The notes beneath the pieces are model-generated. The model searched no databases and was not told the origin of the DNA. It was given only the letters and a program-made list of their open reading frames with translations. A stretch of DNA of 64,000 nt from Pachyseris speciosa (lineage: Eukaryota; Cnidaria; Anthozoa; Scleractinia; Pachyseridae). The stretch is taken from positions 1,505,001 through 1,569,000 of the forward strand of contig JAEMWC010000075.1 in NCBI GenBank assembly GCA_016490735.1, given 5' to 3'. Numbering within the stretch: the stretch's first letter is position 1; every line of letters starts with the position of its first letter. The translations under genes and the position numbers were made by a program. This document shows, one piece after another, positions 17,724 to 59,125 of this stretch.

Positions 17724-17744
17724 TTTTTTATGTTTAAGGCGAAT

Positions 17745-17778
17745 GATGGCCCCCGGTAGGGTGAGTGCAATGGCCACC
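17745..17778 (-). other. U1A-site hairpin in the E4 3' UTR
   Basis: In sense the stem GGTGGCC/GGCCATC (one G-T pair) closes a 20-nt loop that begins ATTGCACTCA directly after the closing C-G pair. AUUGCAC next to a C-G pair is the known recognition feature of U1A/SNF proteins on U1 stem-loop II. The loop is longer than the 10 nt of U1. It lies 22-55 bp from the element 3' end. Confidence 0.55.
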
Positions 17779-17854
17779 AGACAACAGTCTCATCCCGAAC
17801 AAAAACGAACGGGTTCGCCAGAAACGAGGGGTACACCAGTACGTCAAACATCAC

Positions 17855-17871
17855 CGAGGAATTGAACCTCG
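17855..17871 (-). other. tRNA T-arm-like hairpin in the E4 3' UTR
   Basis: In sense CGAGG-TTCAATT-CCTCG: a 5-bp stem and a 7-nt loop of the TTCRANN form, the geometry of a tRNA T arm and of a pol III B box. E8, E10 and E12 have different stems with preserved pairing. No acceptor, D or anticodon arm surrounds it. Confidence 0.6.
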
Positions 17872-17949
17872 CCCTCTACGGACACAGTACAAACATACAA
17901 GACAAAGACAGGACAAAATAACAAGTTAAAAAACGCAGGAGGCCGCAGC

Positions 17950-18230
17950 CATCAGAAATTTACACACTCACTCATACCGAGCCCTAGTACATCCAATTAA
18001 GGCGACCGAAGGGACACGGCAAAAACACACACACTCAAGCTGAGCCCTAGTACATCCAATTAAGGCGACCGAAGGGACACAGCAATGCACACTCATTCAA
18101 GCCGAGCCCTAGTACATCCAATTAAGGCGACCAAAGGGACACGGCAGGGAACACACTCATTCAAGCCGAGCCCTAGTACATCCAATTAAGGCGACCAAAG
18201 GGACACGGCGGGAAACACACACTCAGGCAA
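17950..18230. repeat. Tandem repeats in the E4 3' UTR
   Basis: gagccctagtacatccaatt followed by aaggcgaccgaagggacac recurs four times with a period of about 60 bp, separated by short variable cacacactcaagc-like segments. E8 (near 37500-37620) has single or double versions (ccccagtgcaaccaatgaaggagacc, ccccagtacagccagttaaggagacc). The copies in E4 are therefore an expansion of a shared 3' UTR block. Confidence 0.75.
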
Positions 18231-18264
18231 GGGGAAAAGAAAGCAAGAACCAGAAGAAAAAGAA

Positions 18265-21200
18265 CTAAATACCAGAGAAGGAAAACCGACCGTCTGCTAC
18301 GGAACCAATGACACCACTGGCACCCCACTGACGATGGAACAAACGACGACGCCGAGAAGAACGGAAACGCCTGAAGTATAACGGCAGATGGAATTTCACC
18401 CGAGCCTTAACTTGCTCAATAACCTCAAGCGCACCAGGACGGACGTCGCGGAAACGGTAGTCATTACGGGCATGCCAAATGAAGAACTTACAAACATTGA
18501 GGATATAGACAAAGACACGCGGAGTGTTACGAAGCTCATTCTGACTAAAACCAAACAAGACATGACGACAAACCAGGGACGGAACAGCAGGAGAAAAAAG
18601 AAACATAAGAGACTGGAGCCAGGAAGAACACTATGAGCCAGAGGACAAGAAAAGAACAAATGAGAAGGACACTCAAGATAATGGCCACAAAAACACTCCG
18701 GGTCAACATCATAACCAAAACCAAGCAGACGGTCGGCAGTGTAGTTAACACCATGAGCAATCTTCCAGGAGAGATCAATAACAGGACGGTCCAGGGCAAA
18801 GAAGAAGAGTTCCGCCCATGTAGAGGGCCAATAAAGGTCACCATACATGGGACGGAACTTCTCGACACAATGCGGTGAAGAACGGCTCTCAGACAGGAGA
18901 AACAGATAACAGGAATTCGCAGACATGCTGGAAGCGACACCAAAGTGATGAGGTGACAAAGAAGCCATGACGAGAGAAGAGCGACGCTCACAATAAGAGC
19001 CCTCAATCTCACGCCAGGTAGACAAGACAACAGAGTAAAATGGGGGCAGAGCCTTGGCATAAAAATCAGAAGGGGAGGACAGAACCTCAAGAGCAGAAAC
19101 ATCAAAGGAATACCAACACCAATATGAAAAGAAAGAAACCCAGCTAGACGGTGAGGATGCAAAACGTCTGATCCACTGAACCAGCAGGGAACAGACCTTA
19201 AGGCGAACATCCACCACCGAAAAGCCTCCAGCAGTTATAGGTTGAACAACAACGGAACGAGAGACCAAATCACGCTTACCCTTCCAAAAGAAATCAAAAA
19301 CAGTTTTATTCAACTCAGAAAGAACCCAGGGAGGCATGTGAATCAGGGAGGCCACATACCAAACCCGGGACAAGGCAAGAACGTTAATAACCAAGGCTCT
19401 ACCACCAAAAGAAAGGGAGCGCCGCTTCCAAGAAGAGAGCACATTCTCCACCGCAGTGATCCTGGGCCGCCAGTTATCTTCTTCAAGGTTCCCGGGGCCA
19501 AGAAAAACACCAAGCACCTTAATCCTGACCGAAGTCCATTCCAAAGCCACAGGGGGTCAACCCTTCCATTCCAAGCCCCAAGCCAAAGGCCCTTGGACTT
19601 GGACATGTTCAGCTTGGCCCCGCAACCTTTCTCAAACAAAGAATAAGTCCTAAAAACTGCCAAAATGGCATCGTCAGATGTAACAATGAGTGAGGTATCA
19701 TCTGCGTACTGAGAAATAGGGGACAAGGGCAAAGGAGCCCCAGGGAGAGAAAGACCAGTGATGCGTGGGTTGGCGCGAATGTTAACAGCTAGGACTTCAG
19801 ATACCAAAACATACAGCAAAGGAGACAAAGGACAACCTTGACGAACACGACGAGAGAGCGAAAAATATGAAGACAAGTAGCCATTAACATTCACCGCACT
19901 CTGGACACCAGTATAGAAAAAGTCCACCCAACGACTGAAAGAGGGGCCGAAGCCCATTCGACGAAGGGTGGCTCGCATAAACCCCCATTCCACGCGATCA
20001 AAGGCCTTTTCCTGGTCCAAGGAGAGAACAGCAACAGGGACGCCGGACAAGGTGGCATAGTCCACTACGTCCCTGAGGAAAGCGACATTCTCCCCTATAA
20101 ACCTCCCGGGAACCCCACATGTCTGATCCTTGGCCACAACAAGATGGATCACCTTAAGTAAACGTCCAGCAAGAACACGAGAAGCCAATTTATAATCAAC
20201 ATTCAGAAGGGAGATGGGGCGCCAGTTACGTGCGTCCAACTGATCTCCCTTCTTGAAGATAAGTGAAATAATACCTCTGCGTTGAGAGAGCGACAAGGAA
20301 CCAGTTTGATAACAGTAATTCAAGACAGAAATAAGATCAGAGCCGAGCACCCCCCAAAACTTAACATAAAATTCAATAGGGACGCCATCGGACCCAGGGG
20401 CTTTGCGCTTGGCCATACCAACAAGGGCCCGATAACACTCCCCAACAGTCAACACACCATCACACAGCTCAGCCTGATCAGAAGAAAGGGAAGACGAAAT
20501 ATTGCTGAGCAGGGAGTCCTGCACAGTAACATCAGTAGGAGACGAAGAAAAGAGAGACAAATAAAAAGAGGAAAAAGACGAGCAGAGATCAGACGGACTA
20601 GAAATAATAGAACCGTCAGACTCTCTCAACGCAGAGACCCAGCGGTCAGCCGAACGTTTCTTTTCAAGGCGAAAAAAGTACGCCGAGGAGACCTCACCCT
20701 CCTCAACCCAGCGAATCCGAGATCGAACCTGAGCGCCCCTAGCAATCTCAGTGTCAATGCGTGATATTTGGGCAAGCACCGAATGATAGGCGCCCAAACA
20801 AGAGAGCAAACCATCATCAACACGGCCCTTAAGGTGCTGAGCGAGCCGAGAAAGCAAGTCACAAGACTGCGAGCTCAGTCCCCGAGAACGCTCAACACAA
20901 TACGAAATAGTCAGACCCTTGATTTTGGCCTTATCCGCCTCCCACCATTCTGTTAATGTAGAAAAACGGAGCAAAGCTCGCTTCCAGTCCACCCAAAAGC
21001 TAGCAATTAGTTTGTAATACGCATCTTCCTCGAGGATGGAGGTATTGAGCTTCCATAAACCTGGTCCAGGGGGGATGACATCCGGAACAAAAACAGAAAA
21101 CACCAAGGCACAATGATCAGAAAAAGGGCACGGGACAATTTCACAGGAGGAGACAGAAGCAACCCAAATGTAGGGACAACCAACAAGATCGATACGGGAT

Positions 21201-21829
21201 GAGAGAAGACCATCCCGCCTGGACCAGGTAAAACCAGAAGAGGACGGGTGAAGATATCTCCAGATGTCAACACAGCAGGACTCATCAAATAGGCGGGTAA
21301 GGGCAATGGTGCTTTCCCGAGAGACATCACTGGGATCGGAGCCACAACGATCAACACCACGGTCAAACACAGTGTTAAAATCCCCAACAAGGACCGTGGG
21401 GATAGCCGGGTCAATGTTGGTGGAGACACTATCAAGGAAATGATCACGATCAGGGTTGCGGTTCGGAGCATACAGACAGGCAACACGAAAACGAACATCA
21501 CGCAATAGAAATTCACACTGAAGGAAACGACCATCATCGTCCGCCCATGAGGTAACAAACGACAAAGACGGACGAAACAACACAATACACCCACGAGACT
21601 TGTTACTACCAGGAGACACAGCGAACGAAAGACCTGAAGAACGAAACCAAGAGTCACACTCACTGCGCGAGGCACAGTGAGTCTCCTGAAGACAAATGAC
21701 ATCAATAGAGGAAGGAAAGGACCGCAACCACTGAAAGAGACCAGCTCGCTTCGAGGGGTCCCGCAACCCATTAACGTTAAGGGACACTATGGACAAAGCC
21801 ATGAGAGTTAAAGGAAAAGGAAAAACCAT
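18265..21829 (-). pseudogene. ORF2 of E4: APE endonuclease-reverse transcriptase, two frameshifts
   Basis: The ATG at 21829 overlaps the ORF1 stop as TGATG. Endonuclease blocks: SLNVNGLRD, QETH, GDFNTVFDRG, SRIDLVG, SDHCALV. RT blocks: RPISLLNVDYK, QEKAFDRVEW, VRQGCPLSPLLY, and YADD near 19700. The frame changes near 19545 (after the YADD and thumb start) and near 18620. The C-terminal motif CFCGHYLECPSHLFFSC resembles the CXC-H-C zinc motif of E8. The family differs clearly from the U2 elements in the RT core (QGCP against QGDP) and in the C terminus. Confidence 0.88.
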
Positions 21830-23557
21830 CACGAACAATGAGCACGTGAGACAACAGGCGGCATCCTGTGGCGGCCGGGGCTAGGAGATGCCTCCCGACG
21901 ACCAGCGCGCCGAGCAGTGTCACCGGCCGGAGCCCTCTCCTCATCAGACCAAGACTGAGACCTAGCGTTGGAGACATTAACTTTGACGGGAATACGTGTA
22001 CGCTGCGGCCGTGGGGGAAGAGGAGCCGCAAACGAGTCATCCGACGTGAAGGAAGAGATGTGCTCGCTGGATGAAACATGAGGATCAACAGAAGGATCCG
22101 AACTAACCGGTTGAGAGGAGGCAGAGGGGCCACCATCATCTTGGGAACGAGCCACCTTAGAAACACCCACCTCAGCAGCCGGAACCGCAGCAGTGTTAGC
22201 AGAGCGCTTCTTAGGTTTCTTTTTCTTATTACCATTACTAACAGATGGCGTACCAGTACTATTTTGCTTAACATTACTATTTGTTCCCTTAGCAGTATTA
22301 TTTGTCTTAGCAGTAGTTTTTCCCGTAGCATTATTGCTAGGGGCACTTTGCTTATCAGTAATACCTTCATTACAACTAACATTTTCCTTAGCAGTAGTTT
22401 TTCCTTTATTATCAGTAGTACTTTGCTTATCAGTAATATTTTCCTTAACAGTATCTTTTTCTTTTACTTTCCTTTCAGAACTAACACTAGACTTAACATT
22501 TTCCTTATCAGTAGCGCCTGGAGGATCCTCCTTAACAGTAGCCTTTTCCTTTACACTAACATCTACAGTAACCGTACCATTCCCAGAAGTACTCTGCTTG
22601 TCAGTAGCATCTGGGGTAACAGAAACACCAGAATGAATACCATCACTACTGACAGCATCATCCTGCGTAGCAGAGGAGCAAGAATCAGTCCCCCCTGGGT
22701 TTCAGGCTCACCAGCGGCAACATCCCCTGAAAAAAGCTCCGGGGACGACCCGACAGAAGCCAAAGAGGCCCCCTCCAAAACAGACGGACTCAACTCATCC
22801 AGCTGATTGTCCCGCTGATCCATATCTTCACTGTCTATACATTCCTCATACTCCGAGCCATCCTCCTCCTCCATCTCAGAAGCATTTGAAACATTATCAC
22901 CATCATCCCCAGAAACAGATCCCTCAGCAGGTCCCTCGGGCGAATCAGCTGGGTAATCAGGCAGGTCAGCACGCGACCTCGGGCAATTCCTGGCAAAATG
23001 CCCAGGCTGGAAGCAGCGCCTACATTTTCCCCTAAGGGGACAGTCCGCAGCCCTGTGATTATCTGAGCAAATATCGCACTCAAGGGGCTGGCCCTATACC
23101 AAATACGGCAGTGGACACCGTCAATTTTAAGGTTGCGCGGAATCTCGCGCTTGCGGATCATCCGCACAAGACGCGTGCCGGTGTAAACACCAGCAAGGTG
23201 AGTCCATGTTTGGTGCCTCACCTCCTTAACCTCACCAAAACCTCCCAAAACCCTACTAATACACTCATTTCCCCCCTGATGGGGAAACAAATACACCAAC
23301 ACAAGCTCGGTCGGGTTGGTTTGGAAAACCTCACACTGCACCGCACCGATGTTGACTGAGCCCGCCTCCTCAAACAGCTTTTTCCTATCAGCAAAGCGCT
23401 CACTGAACGTGACTTGAATGTAGCCCCCAGGGCAAAACTGGATGGCATCAAGCATCCCACTGAACTCACGGGCAATAGCCTGAGCCACATCGGCACTAGA
23501 CGTACCCGCAGGAAAGCCGGATCGGACAATTAAAGTTCGCGTATTGCGAGGAGCCAT
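21829..23557 (-). pseudogene. ORF1 of E4: RRM-like, CCHC and low-complexity gag homologue, frameshifted
   Basis: ATG at 23557 (MAPRNTRTLIVRSGF). The N-terminal segment (RTLIVRSGF, GGYIQVTFSE) is RRM-like. The knuckles [13 protein letters not shown] (one residue short) and [14 protein letters not shown] lie in a different frame after a break near 23095. Around 22190-22640 the sense frame is a repetitive Lys/Thr/Asn/Ser-rich linker built from acTGnTAAGGAAAA-like units. The last part, 21829-22170, ends SRAHCS at the TGA that overlaps ORF2. Confidence 0.75.
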
Positions 23558-23707
23558 GACAATTAATTAATAAATATTTAATAAATATTATATAAATAGA
23601 TACGCCAAAAAACAAACAAGGGAAGCAATAAACAAGCCCAAAAGCGATATACACAAGCCAAAAGCGATATATACAAAAGCAATATATACAGGCAAAAAAT
23701 GAAAGAA

Positions 23708-23752
23708 CGAAGTTAAGCCCTGATGAACAGGGACAAAACAAGGATGGGCAGC
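23708..23752 (+). promoter_or_regulatory. 5S-like internal control region, E4 copy a (antisense to the element)
   Basis: GAAGTTAAGCCCTG is followed after exactly 19 nt by GGATGGG, as in the 5S genes of the array (nt 50-61 and 81-87). The 19-nt interval is diverged except for a GGG. It lies on the + strand, opposite to ORF1 and ORF2. Confidence 0.7.
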
Positions 23753-23782
23753 ACAAGCCAAAGGCGATATATACAAAGGCAA

Positions 23783-24259
23783 TATATATATATATATACT
23801 TACTTATCCTCTCCCCGTCGGGGCTTTTCAGGGATAGTTTACAATGCTTCACTAGGGTGAGATCGGATGTCAGCCTGTAAAGGCGCCTCTGGCTGCCGCT
23901 ATCAGTCCATATTTGATCTCACCCACCCACCCAACCCACACATGAATGTCAAAGACAGACGAAAGGTAGAGATAGACCACTACACCGGGAACTACGTCCC
24001 CTACTCTTATCGAACAGTGTGTGGGTTCTTTAACGTCCCACAGATTATAATGTGCAAGTGTTGTGAGACGGGACCTACGGTTTATCGTCCTTATCCGAGA
24101 AGACTAGAAAGTCTAACCATTTGCAGATGCTATTACAAAGGCAGCACTTTTCTCCTCAATTATTTAAAGACCCTAAGTGTTGGTCCGGCCGGGGTTTGAA
24201 CCCACGACCTCCCGCACGCTAGTCCGGTGCTCTACCACTGAGCTAACCGGTCGGCGGTT
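23783..24259 (-). mobile_element. tRNA-derived SINE inserted in the E4 5' UTR
   Basis: The tRNA-like head lies at 24186-24256. The A box TTAGCTCAGTGGTAGAGC is at 24229-24246 and the B box GGGTTCAAACC at 24193-24203. Acceptor pairing is poor, so it is not a working tRNA. A body of about 380 nt follows (GGGACGTTAAAGAACCCACA, GTAGTTCCCGGTGTAGTGG). The 3' end runs into a TA-rich tract inside the second 5' UTR monomer. The head has no terminator directly behind it, as expected of a SINE. The body is reminiscent of anthozoan SINEs from memory only. Confidence 0.75.
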
Positions 24260-24287
24260 ATATATACAGGCAAAAGTGAAAGAACGA

Positions 24288-24330
24288 AGTTAAGCCCTGA
24301 TGAACAGGGACAAAACAAGGATGGGCGACC
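24288..24330 (+). promoter_or_regulatory. 5S-like internal control region, E4 copy b (antisense)
   Basis: AGTTAAGCCCTG at 24288-24299, exactly 19 nt, then GGATGGGCGACC at 24319-24330. This C box is one base from the 5S GGATGGGTGACC. A further gttggatgggcaacc follows near 24355. Confidence 0.75.
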
Positions 24331-24589
24331 CACCCGAACGAACCAAAACGATGCGTTGGATGGGCAACCAGAAAAAGACGGACTTACCCCAGGTTAGGGC
24401 AGAACGCCCAGCATAAGTCCCTGGGAGGGTCGTCCGGATAAAATAAAACAACAAGAAGAAACTCACAGAAAATCCTTGCTTGCTTCACAGATCCACAAAA
24501 GGCGTCAAAACCACACAAGAGAGTCAGTGACGAGAAGCTGTATCCACAGGAGGCACGAACGTCCCGCACACTTACCATTAACAGGAAAA

Positions 24590-24608
24590 TCCCGCGTCAG
24601 GTAAGTAT
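24590..24608 (-). pseudogene. U1: U1 snRNA 5' end (nt 1-18) with duplicated target
   Basis: In sense ATACTTACCTGACGCGGG, joined to its promoter region on the right and to the E4 5' end on the left. It is the second copy of the 17-bp target duplication. Confidence 0.92.
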
Positions 24609-25204: not shown

Positions 25205-26194
25205 CAATAGTAGTTATTAATTAGGACTCAACAAAATCTTTACATGACCGTTCTCTATTGTACAAAACCCGGCAAAACCCACACATTGGAAAAATTGATC
25301 TCAGAGAGGCGGGAGTGATCTAAAAAAATCCGGCGGCGTATATCACAACAGATGTAACGAATCAAAGCTCGCTGATCCTCCCGCCCATTGTGGAATGTCG
25401 CCTTATTTCGAAAGGCCCACGTACCATAGAGAATGGTCTTAATCAGAAAAATCAACATATTCATCCGCCTCCTTTCTAGGGGGGACCACAAAAGAAAAAA
25501 GACAAACAAAACATTAACAACAAAACTGCAACCTATACGAGCGAGAGGAGAGGCGTGAAAAAGCGCCACACTTCTCTCACGCGAGGGCAGTGAAAAAAAC
25601 AGTGATCGATGGTCTCCCGTCTGGGACAAGAGGCACAGATATCAGAAGAAATGTAACCCCAACGTTTCAAGGAATCACGGACCTTAACTCCTCTCAAAGT
25701 GATTAACCACAAGAGGTCATTCTTGTAATTCTCTGAAAATCCGTCCCGGACGAGAGACCAGTGGTGATCAAGAGAAAAGGAACGTGGAACAAAGGAAGAC
25801 CAATGATGAGAAAGAATAGGAGAAGAGGATCTATGAGACAGTAAGGTCCCATAAATCTTCTTGGAATTTAGATCTGGAATATCACGAACCTTCGCTAAAG
25901 TCTGCAAACACAGATCGTAGAAGGAGGTGGGCAATTTGCGCTTGGAGCTGATATATCGCGCAAATCGGCCCACTCCGCCCGCGTGGATGCCAGGCGACGC
26001 CCGACAAAATACTTACATAAGAAAAAGCTACTATCATCGAGGGAACTAACAATGAAGACCATACACGCTAAACGAAGCGCTTCGCACTTCAATTTCAAGT
26101 TACAAATTCCAAGCCCTCCTTTGTTCGGAGGCAGAAAGCAAGTACTTCTACTAACGGGCTCAATTCGCGTGTTCCAGAGAAAGTTCCAAATGAT
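25205..26194 (-). pseudogene. ORF2 3' fragment of a fourth U2-element family in E5
   Basis: It covers the RT thumb (RIEPVSRSTCFLPPNKGGLG), the connection region and the zinc motif CASCPRRETIDHCFFHC near 25590-25640. A frame change lies near 25560-25630. The protein is clearly different from the same region of E2, E3 and E13, so it marks a separate family. The endonuclease and RT core are missing. Confidence 0.8.
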
Positions 26195-27437
26195 GGGCGA
26201 GGGACCATTGCCGAACTGAAGACCAAAAGGAACCAGCTCGGGGACAGGTGCCAGTGACTGAATGTCAGCCAGACGGACCCTGTGGCCAAGCCTGATGCCA
26301 CGGATCTCCTCCCAAACAAGAGTGTAACGCCAGATCTCATCATGTGTACGGATCATCTTAGCAGATTGGCCGTCCGCAGAGCAGTCCACATCTGCCACAG
26401 AGTAGTCCGTGGTGGGGTCCGCAGAAGGGGCGGGCCACCACTGGTCCACCGGGGTGGGCCCCGGCATGGACACTTCAACCACCTCAACAACCTTCAGCTT
26501 TTCAGCTGGGGCAGACTGCTCGGACGGGGAGTCCTCACCCGAAGGGGGACGGGTCCTCCTCTTCCGATTACGTCGGCGCCGCTGGGGGAGGACATCAGCA
26601 GCAGCGGCCGCAGCAGCCGCGACATCCTCATCACCCTCGGCCGCCGAAACGAACCGTCGGACTCATTCCCAGATGGACACTCCATCTCCGACTCAGCCTC
26701 AGAAGCAGCGTCAGCAGCGGCGTCAGCAGCAGCATCAGCAGCAGCGTCAGCAGGAGCCGGAGCAGGCGTGGCAGCACGACGACGACAAGGAACTGGAGCA
26801 CCGGAAGCGGCAGCCGGAGGACGGTTGGGCGCACCCCAGGCATTGCGGCACTCCGGGCGACGTGGCCAGGACGACGGCAGCGGCGGCAGAGCCCATCCAA
26901 AGGACAGGACTTGCTCCGGTGACCGGTCTTGTGGCAGATGGCGCAGAAGGCAGGCTGACGTCGGTACCAGACACGACACTCGAAGCCGGCGACCCGCACC
27001 AAACCAGGGACGTCCTTCGTCAGGGAGATCTTGACGACGCGATTGCCATCAAACACCCCCGGAAAGGCCTCGTACTGGGAACGCGTGACGGAGTGGACCT
27101 CACCATACGCCGAGAAGAAACTGACGACGGTGGAGTCCGGAACCTCGCTGGGGCAGTCGCGGAGGTACACAAGCCGGGACTTGGTCTTAACGGCAACCAC
27201 GCGCAGCGGGACGTTCTGAAAACGAATGCCACTGTGAACAGCGGCATCACAATCGACAGTGTTCTTGTACGTGATGCGGACCGCACCATTGCGCAAAAAC
27301 TGAACTGTCGACACAGCATCCTTGTTGACGGACTTCAGAAGCTCAGGGAGGACCTCCGAGGCGCCAACACTGGTGTAGACCGAGGCCGGAAAGAAGGCAA
27401 CCAGGCTGTGGGGACACTGGAGCGCATCAGTCGGCAT
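26195..27437 (-). pseudogene. Gag-like ORF of E5, frameshifted and fused to RT
   Basis: The ATG at 27437 aligns with E10 and E12. The RRM-like region and knuckles CAICHKTGHRSKSC and CRRCRRPGHVARS are followed by a frame break near 26830, where E12 reads ECRNAWG. The C-terminal domain (MIRTHDEIWRYTLVWEEI) reopens and continues in frame through the recombination point into RT sequence (GNGPSP then IIWNFLWNTRIEP). Confidence 0.8.
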
Positions 27438-27465
27438 CACGGCAGAAATTGAAGCAGAACCCAAA

Positions 27466-27508
27466 AGTTAAGCCCTGCTCGACGCGGTAAAGAACCGGAT
27501 GGGCAACC
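27466..27508 (+). promoter_or_regulatory. 5S-like internal control region, E5 (antisense)
   Basis: AGTTAAGCCCTG at 27466-27477, exactly 19 nt, then GGATGGGCAACC. It lies 28 bp upstream of the gag ATG on the opposite strand. Confidence 0.7.
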
Positions 27509-27650
27509 AAGATGGCCGACCAAAATGGCAACCCGAGAGCAGCGAAAAATTCGCCAAAAAACTCCTCAAACAAAAGTCCGAGAAGCGACGCTCACCCAAT
27601 TTGGAAAACCGTTAACCGCTAACCAAAAGGATAGGGCCTCCGGCCATACT

Positions 27651-27667
27651 CCGCGTCAGGTAAGTAT
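27651..27667 (-). pseudogene. U1: U1 snRNA 5' end (nt 1-17) left by the U1 side of E5
   Basis: In sense ATACTTACCTGACGCGG next to an intact promoter region. The U1 body of this unit is absent. Confidence 0.9.
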
Positions 27668-37087: not shown

Positions 37088-37124
<37 letters not shown>

Positions 37125-37130
37125 ATTATA

Positions 37131-37173
<43 letters not shown>

Positions 37174-37174
37174 A

Positions 37175-37221
<47 letters not shown>

Positions 37222-37249
37222 ATCACAGTACCTCCCGCGTCAGGTAAGT
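37087..37249 (-). pseudogene. U1: U1 snRNA interrupted by E8 (nt 3 to 3' end)
   Basis: Complete from nucleotide 3 to the 3' end. The 17-bp duplication tcccgcgtcaggtaagt is at 37233-37249 and 43278-43294. Confidence 0.92.
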
Positions 37250-40200
37250 TTTTTTATAACTAGGCGGGCCAAGGGCTTAGTGCAATGCCCTTGCGTCCAT
37301 AAAAACAAGATAAACCGCCTAGAGCGAGGGGCACCCTCTAAACGAGGCCGGCCCACCAACTTCGCCAGGGAGTCGAACCCCGCCTCGCAAAAACAAAAAA
37401 TAAAACAAGAAAACCAAAAAGAAGAGGCAAAAATGACAAAAAGGATAAAAACAACTAAGATAAAAACCCCGTTAACCGAACCAGCGGAAAAGCAATCACA
37501 CCAAACCCCAGTGCAACCAATGAAGGAGACCAAAAGGCAGGCGAAACAAACACAGCGGGACACACAAACGAAAAGACAAAACGGGCCAAAACCCCAGTAC
37601 AGCCAGTTAAGGAGACCAGGGCCAGGCAAGACGTACACAGAGAACAGGTTAAAAAGAAACTTTAAAAACCTCCCATGAAACGACCCCAAAGAACCATTGG
37701 CACCCCACTGGCGAAGAAAATAACGCCTCCTACGAACAGAACGAAAACGCTTAAAAAACAGCGGAAGATAAAAAGAGACACGCGATTTAATACAGGCAAT
37801 CAGCTGCGCAGCGCTGGGAGGAGACGAACGAAAACGAAAATCATTCCGCTGAGACCAGATAAAGAATTTGCAGACATTTAAAAAGTAACAAAAGACCCGA
37901 GGAACACAGCGCAAGTCATCATCAGAAAAGCCAAAAAGGAGGTGTTTAACAGTAAGCGGGGGAGCCAGGGGGGAAACCCTAAAAAGGAGGGATTGAATCC
38001 AGTCAATACCACTCGAGGCTAACGGACAAGAAAAGAAAAGGTGCTCAAGGGATTCCAGATGATATCCACAAAAGCACGTGGCAGGAACATTCAAACCAAA
38101 AGATCTCAGGCGCTCGGCCGTGTAAAGAACCCCATGAGCGATTTTCCAGTTAAGGTCAACAACTTGCCTATCCAAAGGCATAGAAAACAGGGATTTCCAA
38201 ACAAGAGGCCAATCAAGATCACCAAAGGAGGAGCGAAATTTAGTAACACAGTGAGGCTGGCAAGGGTGGATAGACAACAAAAGATCATAACAGGACTTAC
38301 AAGAAATTCGAGCAGCAGGGGCAGCAGTAGACAGAGAACCAACAACAAGCTCATCAGAAGAGACAGAACCCTGAAGGGCAGACCAGGCATCAAGCAAAGA
38401 AGCATAAAATGGGGGAAGGGCAGACGAATGAAAACCGGAAGGATCAGAAAACATAGCAAGAGGGCCAATTCCAAAACGATCAAAGCACCAGTACGTAAGC
38501 AAGGAAACCCAACCATTGGGAGAAACTAAAAAACGACGGATCCACTGGGCAAGAAGCGCATGAACCTTAAAAGAGATAGAGACCACCCCAAAGCCACCCT
38601 CCTCCTGACTATGGACCAAAACATCCCTAGCGACCAAGTCACGCTTACCGCCCCAGAAAAAATTAAAAACAATGGTGTTAAGCTCTCGCAATACCCAGGG
38701 AGGCATAGAAACCAAGGAAGCCACATACCAAACCCTGGATAAGGCGAGAGCATTAGAAACAAGGGCCCTCCCCTTAAAGGATAAGGCCCGAGAACGCCAA
38801 GAGTCGAGACATTTTTGAACTGCATTGATGCGCGGCCGCCAGTTATCCTCCGCCAAGTCCCCATTCCCAATAAAAACCCCCAGAATCTTGACCTTTACGG
38901 ATGACCACACAATTGCCACAGGGGCGTCTAAACGGCCACGCCAACTTCCCAACCAAAGGCCCTCACACTTACTGAGGTTAAGTTTAGAACCAGAGCCACG
39001 TTCAAAAAGAGCATAAGTTTCGAAGGTAGCCCTGATAGCATCATCCGAAGAGACAATAACAGAGGTATCATCAGCGTACAAAGAAAGAACAGGTAAAGGA
39101 GACAAAGACCGAGGGATAAGGAGACCGTTGATGGCAGGATGGGCCCTAATATTAACCGCGAGTACCTCCATAGTGATGACATAGAGAAGAGGGGACAAGG
39201 GACAACCCTGCCGGACACCACGAGAAGGCGCGAAAGAGGGAGAAACGTAACCGTTAATGTAGATTGAACTGCGAACATCAGAGTACAAGAGAGAAACCCA
39301 ACGGATAAAAGAGGGGCCGAAGCCCATGCGGGAAAGCGTAGAGATCAGGAAAGACCAATCCACTCTGTCAAAGGCCTTTTCCTGATCAAGGGAAAGAATG
39401 GCCACAGGGATGTCAAGTTCGTTAGCGTAATGAGCAATGTCCCTTAGTAAAGCCACATTTTCTCCAATGAATCTTCCAGGCACTCCACATGTCTGATCAG
39501 GAGCAACCACATGATGTAAAACCTTAAGGAGACGACCAGCAAGAGAACGCGCGCAGAGTTTGTAATCAACGTTCAACAAGCTGATGGGTCTCCAATTCTT
39601 ACGCTCAAGTCTGTCGCCTTTCTTAAAGAGAAGAGTGACCAAAGCCCCACGTTGGGAAAAGGGCAAGGAGCCCAAATCATAGGACACATTCAAAACGTCA
39701 ACAAGATCCGACCCAATAGTATCCCAGAAGGTCAAATAAAACTCGGCGGGGAGGCCATCAAGCCCAGGACTCCTACCCCTAGCCATCCCCTCTAAGGCAG
39801 AGCGCACTTCGGAAACAGTGAGACAACCCTCACAAAACGGAATCTGATCAGGGGGAAGGAAAGACGAAAGCTTATCCAAGAGGGACTCCTGGGTAGGCAG
39901 ATCAACGGGAGATGAAGAGAAAAGAGAAAGATAGAAAGACACCCAGGAAGAGAGAATACCATTAAGATCAGAAGCGATAGAACCGTCATCACGTCTGATT
40001 GCAGAGATCCAATTTTCCGACCCCCGCTTTTTCTCGAGATGGAAGAAATACCGAGAGGAGGATTCGCCTTCCTCGGCCCAGCGAACACGGGCTCTGACAC
40101 GGGCCCCCTCAGCAGCCTTGCGGTCAATGGCAGCGATCTGAGACAAAACCTTTTGGTACACGGAAAGCAAGGAGACGCGGCCAGCATCGATATGACCCTT

Positions 40201-41157
40201 AAGATGGCGAGCCAGATTATCAAGCAAGGAGCGAGAGCAATTCGACTCCCTCACCTTAACCGAGGCAAAAGATATAGCAAGTCCTTTAATGCGGTCTTTG
40301 CCAACATCCCACCACTCCTGAAGCGAACGAAAGCGCGATTTATACGACCTCCAACTTTGCCAAAAATCAACGATCGTGGTACGGAAAAAAACATCTTTTA
40401 ATAATGAAACATTAAGACACCAACGGCCAGGGCCCCTAGGAATAGGTTCAGGAATGGAGACAGACAAAACAAGAGCAGCATGATCAGAAAAAGGACACGG
40501 GATCATCTCACAGGAGACGACCCCATGAATCCAAGCATACGGACAACCAATTAAATCAATTCTGGAGGCGCGAGAACCATCCGACCTAGTCCAAGAAAAG
40601 GCAGAAGAAGAGGGATGCAGATACCTCCAAATATCGATAACCCCCGCATCACGAAATAAAGCAGACAGAACAACAGAACTCTCCCGGGACGTATCAAAAA
40701 TGTCACAACCTCGACGGTCCAAAGAACGATCCAGGACAGTATTAAAGTCTCCACAGAGAAGCGTAGGGACAGATGGGTCTAACTGAGAGGAAACAAAGGA
40801 AAAAAAGTCATCACGCTGAGGATTCCTATTCGGAGCATACACAGACACAACACGGAAAGAAATATCATGACGACTAAACTCAGCCATGACAAAACGACCT
40901 TGTGAATCCGACCAAGAATTCATCAAGGAAAAAACAGAACGATAGAGAATGACCGTACCACAAGAGCGCAAAGTCCCAGGCGACACAACAGACAAAAAAC
41001 CATGCGACGAGAACCAAGAATTACACTCCGCAGAAGATAAAACATGAGTCTCCTGTAGGCATACGAAATCAGGTTGGAGATGACTGAGCCACTGAAGCAC
41101 AGCCATCCGCCTGTTCGAGTCCCGCAGGCCATTAACATTTAAAGTGACACAAGCCAT
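37240..41157 (-). CDS. ORF2 of E8: APE endonuclease-reverse transcriptase, uninterrupted
   Basis: 1305 codons from ATG 41157 (MACVTLNVNGLRD). APE endonuclease (about residues 1-240): NVNGLRD, QETH, GDFNTVLDRS, SRIDLIG, SDHAALV. RT core (about 480-760): RPISLLNVDYK, QEKAFDRVDW, RQGCPLSPLLY and YADD near residue 695. The C-terminal zinc motif CFCGYHLESLEHLFFSC is near 1065. The expected end is just after RRRYFLRQWGANG, as in E4. Here the frame continues about 130 codons through the 3' UTR and the A tail, and stops at TGA within U1, so the native stop was probably lost. The enzyme should nick target DNA and reverse-transcribe element RNA there. This is one of two apparently complete ORF2 frames in the window. 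Confidence 0.92.
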   Translation of the reverse strand: MACVTLNVNGLRDSNRRMAVLQWLSHLQPDFVCLQETHVLSSAECNSWFSSHGFLSVVSPGTLRSCGTVILYRSVFSLMNSWSDSQGRFVMAEFSRHDISFRVVSVYAPNRNPQRDDFFSFVSSQLDPSVPTLLCGDFNTVLDRSLDRRGCDIFDTSRESSVVLSALFRDAGVIDIWRYLHPSSSAFSWTRSDGSRASRIDLIGCPYAWIHGVVSCEMIPCPFSDHAALVLSVSIPEPIPRGPGRWCLNVSLLKDVFFRTTIVDFWQSWRSYKSRFRSLQEWWDVGKDRIKGLAISFASVKVRESNCSRSLLDNLARHLKGHIDAGRVSLLSVYQKVLSQIAAIDRKAAEGARVRARVRWAEEGESSSRYFFHLEKKRGSENWISAIRRDDGSIASDLNGILSSWVSFYLSLFSSSPVDLPTQESLLDKLSSFLPPDQIPFCEGCLTVSEVRSALEGMARGRSPGLDGLPAEFYLTFWDTIGSDLVDVLNVSYDLGSLPFSQRGALVTLLFKKGDRLERKNWRPISLLNVDYKLCARSLAGRLLKVLHHVVAPDQTCGVPGRFIGENVALLRDIAHYANELDIPVAILSLDQEKAFDRVDWSFLISTLSRMGFGPSFIRWVSLLYSDVRSSIYINGYVSPSFAPSRGVRQGCPLSPLLYVITMEVLAVNIRAHPAINGLLIPRSLSPLPVLSLYADDTSVIVSSDDAIRATFETYALFERGSGSKLNLSKCEGLWLGSWRGRLDAPVAIVWSSVKVKILGVFIGNGDLAEDNWRPRINAVQKCLDSWRSRALSFKGRALVSNALALSRVWYVASLVSMPPWVLRELNTIVFNFFWGGKRDLVARDVLVHSQEEGGFGVVSISFKVHALLAQWIRRFLVSPNGWVSLLTYWCFDRFGIGPLAMFSDPSGFHSSALPPFYASLLDAWSALQGSVSSDELVVGSLSTAAPAARISCKSCYDLLLSIHPCQPHCVTKFRSSFGDLDWPLVWKSLFSMPLDRQVVDLNWKIAHGVLYTAERLRSFGLNVPATCFCGYHLESLEHLFFSCPLASSGIDWIQSLLFRVSPLAPPLTVKHLLFGFSDDDLRCVPRVFCYFLNVCKFFIWSQRNDFRFRSSPPSAAQLIACIKSRVSFYLPLFFKRFRSVRRRRYFLRQWGANGSLGSFHGRFLKFLFNLFSVYVLPGPGLLNWLYWGFGPFCLFVCVSRCVCFACLLVSFIGCTGVWCDCFSAGSVNGVFILVVFILFVIFASSFWFSCFIFCFCEAGFDSLAKLVGRPRLEGAPRSRRFILFLWTQGHCTKPLARLVIKKLT
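37271..37292 (-). other. U1 stem-loop II mimic in the E8 3' UTR
   Basis: In sense the perfect 6-bp stem AAGGGC/GCCCTT closes a 10-nt loop ATTGCACTAA. U1 stem-loop II has a 10-nt loop (ATTGCACTCC in human, ATTGCACTTC in this array), also closed by C-G. Loop length, the first eight loop bases and the closing pair are all the same. It lies 22-43 bp from the element 3' end. Confidence 0.7.
37366..37382 (-). other. tRNA T-arm-like hairpin in the E8 3' UTR
   Basis: In sense CGGGG-TTCGACT-CCCTG. Five pairs (one G-T) and a 7-nt TTCRANN loop. The flank GCGAAGTTGG is shared with E10 and E12. Confidence 0.6.
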
Positions 41158-57042: not shown

Positions 57043-57062
57043 TTTTTTGTGTTTAAGGCGAA

Positions 57063-57100
57063 CAGGCAGCCCCCCGGTAGGGTGAGTGCAATGGCTCCTG
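57063..57100 (-). other. U1A-site hairpin in the E12 3' UTR
   Basis: Same sequence and pairing as the E10 hairpin at 47208-47245. The second ATTGCACTCC is at 57127-57145. Confidence 0.5.
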
Positions 57101-57193
57101 GACATAACAGTCAAATCCCACTCAAAGGCGGAGGAGTGCAATGCCAAAGAGAGGGTTCACCAAAAACGGAGGGGCACCGGCCGCCAACTTCGC

Positions 57194-57210
57194 CAGGGTG
57201 TCGAACCCTG
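57194..57210 (-). other. tRNA T-arm-like hairpin in the E12 3' UTR
   Basis: In sense CAGGG-TTCGACA-CCCTG, as in E10. Confidence 0.6.
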
Positions 57211-57363
57211 CCTCCACAAAAATTAAGACAACCTCCACACAACGGATACAGGGGAACCCGCACAGTAGACCAATTAAGGACACCGAGTGCAAGGAATCCC
57301 ACACAACGGAAACAAACACAAACACAAGAGCAGGCCACACGGGGTGAGGGACTCTCCGGCCAC

Positions 57364-58911
57364 TCACCCCGAGGAGCCAAACTCTACAGGAGGGAGGTCA
57401 GGTAACCGCGGGGCTATACCCTTCAACGGCAGGTAGGACGTCGGCCGCGACTCCGGGTGATTAGTGTAGAACAGATACCTACCGTACTGAGCGGACAGGT
57501 CCTGCTCCAACACCGCCCTAGTCAGCGAGCCAAGATCGATGTACGCATCCACCTCAGGGCTGCTCACCTCTGGATCCATGAGTAGCCGACGGTAACTCGA
57601 AGGCTCGAACACAGAAGGAGCAGCACACTCGCCACTGGAAAGACCATGGTCAAACACCCTGACGGGCGAGGGACCATTGCCGAACTGAAGACCAAAAGGA
57701 ACCAGCTCGGGGACAGGTGCCAGCGACTGAGTGTCAGCCAGACGGACCCTGTGGCCAAGCCTGATGCCACGGATCTCCTCCCACACAAGAGTGTCACGCC
57801 AGATCTCATCATGTGTACGGATCATCTTAGCAGATTGGCCGTCCGCAGAGCAGTCCACATCTGCCACAGAGTAGTCCGTGGTGGGGTCCGCAGAAGGGGC
57901 GGGCCACCACTGATCCACCGGGGCGGACCCCGGCATGGACACCACCTCGACAACCTTCAGCTTTTCAGCTGGGGCAGACTGCTCGGACGGGGAGTCCTCA
58001 CCCGAAGGGGGACGGGTCCTCCTCTTCCGATTACGTCGGCGCCGCTGGGGGAGGACATCAGCAGCAGCGGCGGCAGCAGCCGCAGCAGCCGCGACATCCT
58101 CGTCACCCTCGGCCGCCGAAACGAAACCGTCAGACTCATTCCCAGATGGACACTCCATCTCCGACTCAGCCTCAGAAGCAGCTTCAGCAGCGGCGTCAGC
58201 AGCAGCATCAGCGGCAGCGTCAGCAGGAGCCGGAGCAGGAGTCTCAGCACGACGACGAGGTGGAACTGGAGCACCGGAAGCGGCAGCCGGAGAACGGTTG
58301 GGCGCACCCCAGGCATTGCGGCACTCCCGGGCGACGTGGCCAGGACGACGGCAGCGGCGGCAGAGTCCATCCAGAGGACAGGACTTGCTCCGGTGACCGG
58401 TCTTACGGCAGATGGCGCAGAAGGCAGGCTGACGTCGGTACCAGACACGACACTCGAAGCCGGCGACCCGCACCAAACCAGGGACGTCCTTCGTCAGGGA
58501 GATCTTGACGACGCGATTGCCATCAAACACCCCCGGAAAGGCCTCGTACTGGGAACGCGTGACGGAGTGGACCTCACCATACGCCGAGAAGAAACTGACG
58601 ACGGTGGAGTCCGGAACCTCGCTGGGGCAGTCGCGGAGGTACACAAGCCGGGACTTGGTCTCAACGGCAACCACGCGCAGCGGGACGTTCTGAAAACGAA
58701 GGCCACTGTGAACAGCGGCATCACAATCGACAGTGTTTTTGTACGTGATGCGGACCGCACCATTGCGCAAAAACTGAACTGTCGACACAGCATCCTTGTT
58801 GACGGACTTCAGAAGCTCAGGGAGGACCTCCGAGGCGCCAACACTGGTGTAGACCGAGGCCGGAAAGAAGGCAACCAGGCTGTTGGGACACTGGAGCGCA
58901 TCAGTCGGCAT
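57364..58911 (-). CDS. Gag-like protein of E12, intact (515 aa)
   Basis: ATG at 58911 (MPTDALQCPNSLV); the open frame upstream has no ATG. Residues about 1-150 are two RRM-like segments (VSTVQFLRNGAVRITY; SRLVYLRDCPSEVPD with VVSFFSAYGEVHSV). Two CCHC knuckles follow, CAICRKTGHRSKSC and CRRCRRPGHVAREC. Then come repeated AADAAADA units, an acidic stretch, an Ala run and the basic cluster RRRRNRKRRTR, a possible nuclear signal. A separate C-terminal domain of about 170 residues (from MIRTHDEIWRDTLVWEE) ends VEFGSSG; I do not recognise it. Retention of a full frame in an element without RT suggests the protein is selected, perhaps to bind its own RNA. Confidence 0.9.
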   Translation of the reverse strand: MPTDALQCPNSLVAFFPASVYTSVGASEVLPELLKSVNKDAVSTVQFLRNGAVRITYKNTVDCDAAVHSGLRFQNVPLRVVAVETKSRLVYLRDCPSEVPDSTVVSFFSAYGEVHSVTRSQYEAFPGVFDGNRVVKISLTKDVPGLVRVAGFECRVWYRRQPAFCAICRKTGHRSKSCPLDGLCRRCRRPGHVARECRNAWGAPNRSPAAASGAPVPPRRRAETPAPAPADAAADAAADAAAEAASEAESEMECPSGNESDGFVSAAEGDEDVAAAAAAAAAAADVLPQRRRRNRKRRTRPPSGEDSPSEQSAPAEKLKVVEVVSMPGSAPVDQWWPAPSADPTTDYSVADVDCSADGQSAKMIRTHDEIWRDTLVWEEIRGIRLGHRVRLADTQSLAPVPELVPFGLQFGNGPSPVRVFDHGLSSGECAAPSVFEPSSYRRLLMDPEVSSPEVDAYIDLGSLTRAVLEQDLSAQYGRYLFYTNHPESRPTSYLPLKGIAPRLPDLPPVEFGSSG

Positions 58912-58939
58912 CACGGCAGAAATCGAAGCAGAACCCAAA

Positions 58940-58982
58940 AGTTAAGCCCTGCTCGACGCGGTGAAGAACCGGATGGGCAACC
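58940..58982 (+). promoter_or_regulatory. 5S-like internal control region, E12 (antisense)
   Basis: AGTTAAGCCCTG at 58940-58951, exactly 19 nt, then GGATGGGCAACC, 28 bp upstream of the gag ATG on the opposite strand. Confidence 0.7.
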
Positions 58983-59125
58983 AAGATGGCGGACCAAAAT
59001 GGCAACCCGAGAGCAGCGAAAAAATTCGCCAAAAAACTCCTCAAACAAAAGTCCGAGAAGCGACGCTCACCCAATTCGGAAAACCGTCAACCCCAAACCA
59101 AAAGGATAGGGCCTCCGGCCATACT

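Follow-up and report, generated by a model that had tools for sequence, protein, structure and literature searches.

Mobile elements that insert into small nuclear RNA (snRNA) genes make a short list, which as of 2015 was reported to hold only Keno and Utopia, both in U2 genes, together with Dada-U1 and Dada-U6 (PMC4640811; here and below, statements that carry a PMC identifier follow parts of the papers named). A lineage of long interspersed nuclear elements (LINEs) in U1 genes, found in a 64-kb stretch of the coral Pachyseris speciosa (contig JAEMWC010000075.1, positions 1,505,001–1,569,000; this whole stretch is the window, and coordinates are counted from its first base), would enlarge that list. 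The 3′ ends of these U1-type elements (E4, E8, E10 and E12) carry the loop motif of U1 stem-loop II (SLII), and it is put at slightly better than even (about 0.52), judging from sequence, that they bear a selected RNA structure imitating U1 SLII, most likely bound by the host protein SNF/U1A. Neither a U1-gene-targeting retrotransposon of the non-LTR (long terminal repeat) type nor a U1A site in a LINE tail was found among the papers listed in the literature searches, subscription papers and Repbase reports lying outside that scope.

Keno (Tx1 clade) and Utopia (restriction-like endonuclease) are, like the elements of this array, non-LTR retrotransposons fixed to one snRNA-gene site, and an apurinic-type endonuclease is common to Keno and E4/E8; their target is U2, whereas E4, E8, E10 and E12 target the U1 5′ end. 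Dada-U1 resides in U1 genes and has ATTGCAC near its ends, as these four elements do (PMC3706591), but it is a DDE DNA transposon with another U1 target site, and its motif forms inverted repeats at a fixed distance; section 7 of PMC3706591 proposes no hairpin. The U1A polyadenylation inhibition element (PIE) consists of SLII-like sites in a 3′ untranslated region (UTR), duplicated as in E10 and E12 (PMC9977717), though PIE regulates host mRNA whereas the U1-type element ends are without AATAAA. The stringent LINE tails of ZfL2-1, ZfL2-2 and UnaL2 have a structured 3′ terminus, as predicted here for the U1-type ends, in which the loop is decisive and the stem exchangeable while it pairs; these loops are read by the cognate protein of open reading frame 2 (ORF2p) and vary between families (PMC4176376).

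U1-inserted elements in an array of 5S, U1 and U2 genes

The window is an array of 5S (plus strand), U1 and U2 (both minus strand) genes, with seven 5S, six U1 and seven U2 matches at the Rfam gathering score. Both U1 and U2 genes are interrupted by retrotransposons with an apurinic-type endonuclease (EN), a reverse transcriptase (RT) and a zf-RVT domain, and two U1 genes are uninterrupted. The U1-type insertion point falls between AT and ACTTACC of U1, with ACTTACCTGACGCGG duplicated at both element ends, and is the same at 4/4 3′ junctions and 5/5 5′ junctions of this array; the exact cut base, an A, is ambiguous because of the element A tail. The elements lie in the sense orientation of U1, ~17 nt into the gene, leaving the U1 upstream flank and 5′ end intact. 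The U2-type elements terminate at U2 TCTGTTCTTATC (seven 3′ junctions read). The U1-type elements and the U1 gene adjoining E8 are:

17726–24591, minus strand: E4, U1-inserted, same clade as E8, ORF2 split into two frames
37252–43279, minus strand: E8, Tx1/L1-like and U1-inserted; internal repeats in the 5′ region, ORF1 in pieces, EN, RT and zf-RVT in ORF2; target duplication as above
47190–49275, minus strand: E10, 2.1-kb ORF1-only U1-inserted element, last 75 nt common with E4
57045–59125, minus strand: E12, 97% identical to E10 and the second copy of its family
37088–37251, minus strand: U1 snRNA gene 3′ of E8, native SLII ATTGCAC at 37181–37187

The SLII loop motif at the 3′ ends

The 9-mer CATTGCACT occurs on the sense strand of all four U1-inserted 3′ ends, and its 12 occurrences on both strands of the window consist of six in native U1 SLII and six in U1-type 3′ ends, with none elsewhere. 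The six element copies of ATTGCAC (5′ base on the minus strand: E4 17771; E8 37286; E10 47237 and 47287; E12 57092 and 57142) all lie on the RNA-sense strand with a C directly before, at 34 (E8), 45 (E4), and 47 and 97 nt (E10 and E12) from the 3′ junction. This agrees with the initial annotation of the stretch, which had placed the heptamer close to the element 3′ ends; its coordinates hold within 1–2 bases, and the heptamer, which it had not noticed in the U2-type 3′ UTRs, is missing from the last 200 nt of the U2-type 3′ ends (0/7). Bare ATTGCAC occurs at six other window positions (plus strand, 13194, 29596, 45369 and 48563; minus strand, 15963 and 62845), none in 3′ ends, and the two on the minus strand have G next.

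Dinucleotide shuffles of the last 120 nt produced CATTGCACT in 8 (E4), 0 (E8), 25 (E10) and 34 (E12) of 20,000 trials each. The four ends are not independent, as E10 and E12 are 97% identical and the last 75 nt of E4 are 80% identical to both, which leaves three distinct rows; because of this relatedness, and because the folded stretches were cut to predicted domains, shuffle counts and fold z-scores were not merged into one p-value. A blastn comparison of the E4 and E8 3′-terminal domains reported no match at E 1e-3, yet CATTGCACT is present in both. In the window, E8 alone has the strict SLII form (C-G closure, 10-nt loop, stem of at least 4 bp), since native SLII deviates from it and so do the remaining element sites.

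The host U1 SLII stem apparently has U-U mismatches (CCCUUUC/GAUUGGG), for example at 37175–37200 (minus strand), and so does the second SLII-like site of E10 and E12. A corresponding imitation of U2 stem-loop IV (SLIV) by the U2-type elements was considered and rejected, as ATAGCAC occurs seven times, in native U2 only.

Predicted folds of the 3′ ends

The hairpins and domains predicted around the motif, including the second copies in E10 and E12 that the initial annotation had listed, are:

37270–37293, minus strand: E8 U1-SLII-like hairpin, 7-bp stem CAAGGGC/GCCCTTG, loop ATTGCACTAA (10 nt), C-G closing pair
37260–37322, minus strand: E8 3′-terminal structured domain, closed by CTAGGCGG/CCGCCTAG
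17744–17779, minus strand: E4 SLII-like hairpin B, UGGUGGCC/GGCCAUCA stem, 10-nt AUUGCACUCA bulge, inner CCC/GGG
17732–17825, minus strand: E4 3′-terminal multi-branched domain (folded 17730–17825: z −3.11, 0/200 shuffles as stable)
47208–47245, minus strand: E10 SLII-like hairpin B, CCATTGCACTCACCCTACCGGGGG as in E4 plus one G, stem changed with compensation
47262–47300, minus strand: E10 second SLII-like hairpin A, C-AUUGCACUCCUCC-G
57063–57100, minus strand: E12 SLII-like hairpin B, identical to E10
57117–57155, minus strand: E12 second SLII-like hairpin A, identical to E10

The E8 RNA is predicted to form CAAGGGC-AUUGCACUAA-GCCCUUG within an outer stem CUAGGCGG/CCGCCUAG, with a C-G closure probability of at least 0.99 in five context lengths; the 10-nt loop and C-G closure described for it earlier stand, but the stem has 7 bp, not 6. 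The minimum free energy (MFE) fold of E4 includes hairpin B, its AUUGCACUCA bulge stacked on CCC/GGG, within a four-way domain with closing pairs GUUU..GGCGAA/UUCGCC..AAAC; the C-G closing probability of this hairpin is 0.96–0.99 in five contexts. For the last 130 nt of E10 and E12 the MFE fold (−39.0) pairs the motifs otherwise, while the fold with hairpin B enforced (−38.9, 0.1 kcal/mol off) exposes both motifs in an architecture like that of E4; given this narrow gap and the low probabilities in context, energy alone does not settle the fold. The second E10/E12 site is drawn with a loop of 13 nt and a 3+3+3-bp stem containing U-rich internal loops, its closing C pairing with the drawn G at a probability of 0.49 with 150 nt of context and of 0.24 (E10) and 0.34 (E12) with 200 nt. 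The E10/E12 3′ end has a z-score of −2.02 (5/200 shuffles as stable). For four U2-type 3′ ends, folded as controls out of the seven, z lies between 0.06 and 1.24; the comparison is biased toward U1-type stability, since trimming to predicted domains was applied to the U1-type stretches but not to the controls. A C-G closing pair on a stable stem is thus clear in E8 and E4 (at least 0.96) and low in most contexts in E10 and E12, and the 10-nt loop of E8 corresponds to a 10-nt one-sided bulge in hairpin B of E4, E10 and E12 and to 13 nt at the second E10/E12 site.

The block CCATTGCACTCACCCTACCGGGGG is identical between E4 and E10 (one extra G in E10), while the stem arms differ. All eight pairs of hairpin B are kept, with one bulged base in E10; in four of them both bases differ, and in a fifth only one does. 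An unconstrained simulation (same number of changes, one insertion) kept 8/8 pairs in 0.40% of 200,000 trials, for what is a single E4/E10 comparison with the stem picked on the same sequences. The proposal that the stems of E4, E10 and E12 differ yet still pair is therefore borne out by the compensated pairs of E4 and E10, but the closure in E10 and E12 is low in most contexts. Similarly, the broader proposal of SLII mimicry holds for AUUGCACU after C, the strand, the C-G closure (E8 and E4) and the E8 loop length, with the E10/E12 closure uncertain.

Signals at the element 3′ ends

No AATAAA, ATTAAA or AGTAAA is present in the last 400 nt of the U1-type ends (0/4), all four of which read AAAAAAACTTACC, that is, seven A followed by CTTACC, the last A possibly belonging to the target. 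The U2-type ends of the same array (for example, junctions 49653 and 59491) have AATAAA within 60 nt in 7/7 cases and tails of varying length. The U1-type RNAs would use another mode of 3′-end formation, perhaps through cotranscription that starts at the U1 promoter and reads on into U1.

Candidate readers of the hairpin and competing explanations

U1 SLII and U2 SLIV are both bound by SNF, with contacts at the SLII loop-closing C-G pair and a loop C, and in metazoans except jawed vertebrates SNF is said to serve both RNAs (PMC5992148). Both contacted features are present in the element sites, the closing pair clearly in E8 and E4 and uncertainly in E10 and E12. SLII-like 3′ UTR sites bound by U1A, with repression of polyadenylation, have been described for human pre-mRNAs (PMC9977717). 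The element tails probably contain a host SNF/U1A site that is selected, acts at the RNA level and lies within a structured tail, and the U1-inserted elements may borrow a host splicing protein for copying or homing. The initial annotation had also offered the element's own RRM-like ORF1 protein as a reader; sequence does not support ORF1 as a U1A-like protein. Among 30 ORF1 alignment members, zf-CCHC was present in all, and RRM_1 matched five at E up to 1 (best, 0.012); the RRM-type matches listed among solved structures were NONO, hnRNP R/Q, PTB and PPIE (E 0.2–5), with no U1A up to E 10. ORF1 as a recognisable U1A relative was dropped because of this weak RRM signal and the missing U1A structure match.

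A possible course of events begins with the observed position of the element, in sense orientation behind an intact U1 flank and 5′ end. Transcription would proceed from the U1 promoter and, without AATAAA, would not lead to usual polyadenylation; SNF on the SLII-like hairpin would then build a U1-like 3′ ribonucleoprotein on the element RNA. This complex might protect or define the non-polyadenylated 3′ end and hold the RNA near U1 genes or sites of small nuclear ribonucleoprotein (snRNP) assembly, where ORF2p would nick U1 and copy the RNA. The multi-branched 3′-terminal domain would be read by ORF2p to start target-primed reverse transcription, by analogy with stringent LINEs. It is still debated how site-specific LINEs find their targets and how they process RNA that has no poly(A) signal. 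If the element RNA does carry a site for a host snRNP protein, target choice would be tied to RNA recognition in a way that can be tested directly.

Several observations weigh against an SLII imitation bound by SNF. The evidence comes from three lineages in one array, and, with ATAGCAC restricted to native U2, the elements of this array do not generally mimic the protein site of their target. In E4, E10 and E12, hairpin B departs from a plain SLII, as AUUGCACUCA is a 10-nt one-sided bulge between the C-G-closed stem and CCC/GGG. The probability that the closing C of hairpin B has its drawn partner in E10 and E12 is 0.60 with 60 nt of context, 0.06–0.07 with 80 nt and at most 0.05 with 110–200 nt. 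The E8 domain (37256–37330) is modestly stable (MFE −25.4, z −1.94, 8/200 shuffles as stable), and a 60-nt piece that excludes the 5′ half of the outer stem gives z −0.43 (61/200 shuffles as stable). TATAAA (E8) and CATAAA (E4) stand 7 nt from the end, too near for ordinary polyadenylation signals and weakly resembling them. The repression of polyadenylation by U1A is a human pre-mRNA result, which may or may not extend to a cnidarian SNF.

The tail could instead be an ordinary stringent-LINE stem-loop read by the element's own ORF2p, its likeness to U1 SLII being incidental or a relic, an unlikely but serious alternative. The loop of the 3′ stem-loop is what the cognate ORF2p recognises in two stringent LINEs of zebrafish (PMC4176376), and in each of the three lineages here the domain sits directly at the 3′ terminus. 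Further, E4 and the ORF1-only E10 family have a common 3′ end only over the last 75 nt (80% by blastn), as LINE/SINE (short interspersed nuclear element) partners do, which favours reading by the own protein and also suggests that the tail matters. The zebrafish loops are not interchangeable, however (PMC4176376), while AUUGCACU persists across 55% ORF2 identity (E4 831-aa EN-RT frame against E8 ORF2); moreover, the RNA made by the target gene has this very loop, and nothing similar is present in the seven U2-type ends. Recognition of the same letters as DNA, with an element protein binding ATTGCAC in both the U1 target and the element end, has a parallel in the Dada-U1 transposons, independent U1-targeting elements with GTGCAAT/ATTGCAC near their ends that match U1 (PMC3706591). 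It is improbable here: the spacing to the junction varies (34, 45, 47 and 97 nt against 62 nt in U1) and so lacks a common distance, the copies keep to the RNA-sense strand, and the E4/E10 stem is compensated though DNA recognition needs no such stem, all of which argues for an RNA-level rather than a DNA-level site.

Little credence is likewise given to an accidental ancestral heptamer passed on by common descent without function. Shuffles yielding the 9-mer in 0 to 34 of 20,000 trials, the two copies in E10 and E12, and the retention of the 9-mer in E4 and E8 3′ domains diverged past blastn detection all speak against it, even if the lineages are only three, with E10 and E12 recent copies and E4 related to them at the 3′ end, and even if the sites are not favoured in long-context folds of E10 and E12. 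An element replicating beside U1 could also, by template switching, have captured a fragment of the U1 gene at its 3′ end. Such a capture is very improbable, as the stems are unlike (host CCCUUUC-loop-GAUUGGG against E8 CAAGGGC-loop-GCCCUUG), the flanks are without evident match, and the host loop ends in UUC, not in UAA, UCA or UCC.

5S-like blocks in the 5′ UTRs

All of the U1-type 5′ UTR blocks examined, two in E4 and one each in E6 (a fragment of the E10 family), E8, E10 and E12, contain in antisense the pattern AAGTTAAGCCCTG, 19 nt, (A/G)GATGGG. Each comprises a 5S A box and the C-box core GATGGG:

23710–23748, plus strand: 5S-like block in E4
24287–24325, plus strand: 5S-like block in E4
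27465–27503, plus strand: 5S-like block in E6
43092–43130, plus strand: 5S-like block in E8
49090–49128, plus strand: 5S-like block in E10
58939–58977, plus strand: 5S-like block in E12

The blocks align gap-free with the host 5S A box (13/13) and C box at the exact 5S spacing. The pattern has 11 sites in the window, all on the plus strand, made up of five of the seven 5S genes and the six element blocks, and none in U2-type elements; of the two 5S genes without it, one differs at one A-box base and the other has a one-base deletion. The distance from block to element 5′ end is 184–186 bp in 4/6 (the E4 blocks, 303 and 880), and in those four the first TTTT follows 363–366 bp past the A-box start. 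The 5′ UTR of E4 (23700–24600) contains, besides its two 5S-like copies, other internal repeats.

The block is a possible TFIIIA site or antisense RNA polymerase III promoter. A bolder and doubtful extension would dress the element RNA as a U1 ribonucleoprotein: SLII/SNF would take the place of polyadenylation and lead the RNA back to U1 genes, and the antisense promoter of the 5S type would recruit TFIIIA beside the U1 promoter; if true, the host snRNP and 5S machinery would be exploited to find and hold the target array.

Anatomy and relatives of the U1-type elements

In E8 ORF2, PF03372, PF00078 and PF13966 all exceed their cut-offs; in E4, EN and RT do so, with zf-RVT at 25.4 bits against a cut-off of 27.5. 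Assignment to the Tx1 clade is suggested by these domains and the target type. A U2-type ORF2 is 35% identical to that of E8. An E8 open frame (37240–41157, minus strand) spans the hairpin and runs into U1, but the hairpin as coding sequence was rejected: in a 70% identical relative (P0002) the last residue, 1172, aligns at E8 residue 1169, placing the end of ORF2 proper near 37640–37650, ~350 nt before the hairpin, which is thus in the 3′ UTR.

The 2.1-kb family (E10, E12 and the fragment E6, 26191–27666) is a half-LINE with ORF1 present and ORF2 absent. The E10 ORF1 occupies two frames (relatives, 510 and 533 aa), and a block further upstream matches E8 at 80–82%. LINE/SINE pairs have common tails (PMC4176376), and by that analogy the family may be a non-autonomous partner that shares the E4 tail.

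Protein searches, each scoring 8000 candidates, returned 1900 relatives for ORF2, of which the best 120 were listed, and 102 for ORF1; three of the 102 have an organism in the source name, in all cases the stony coral Desmophyllum pertusum. A contig scan for further U1-inserted elements found six loci, five of which match only about the first 190–234 residues at 21–25% identity. At one locus (L001, 3497–3678), on a contig in a bivalve-symbiont metagenome-assembled genome, a related element with AATAAA adjoins an animal-type U2 gene; this contig is probably eukaryotic contamination. Among viral contigs the protein search gave no match, and four stretches with the DNA pattern, none with Rfam U1 at the gathering score, were taken as chance.

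A 31-nt 3′ UTR block resembling a tRNA T arm, GAGGCRGGGTTCGACWCCCTGGCGAAGTTGG, lies at 37356–37386, 47329–47359 and 57184–57214 (minus strand). It was rejected as a known RNA family, the matches being sub-threshold, mascRNA-like in E8 and E10 and two unrelated ones in E4; E8 and E10/E12 have kept the block conserved, and E4 has a diverged version.

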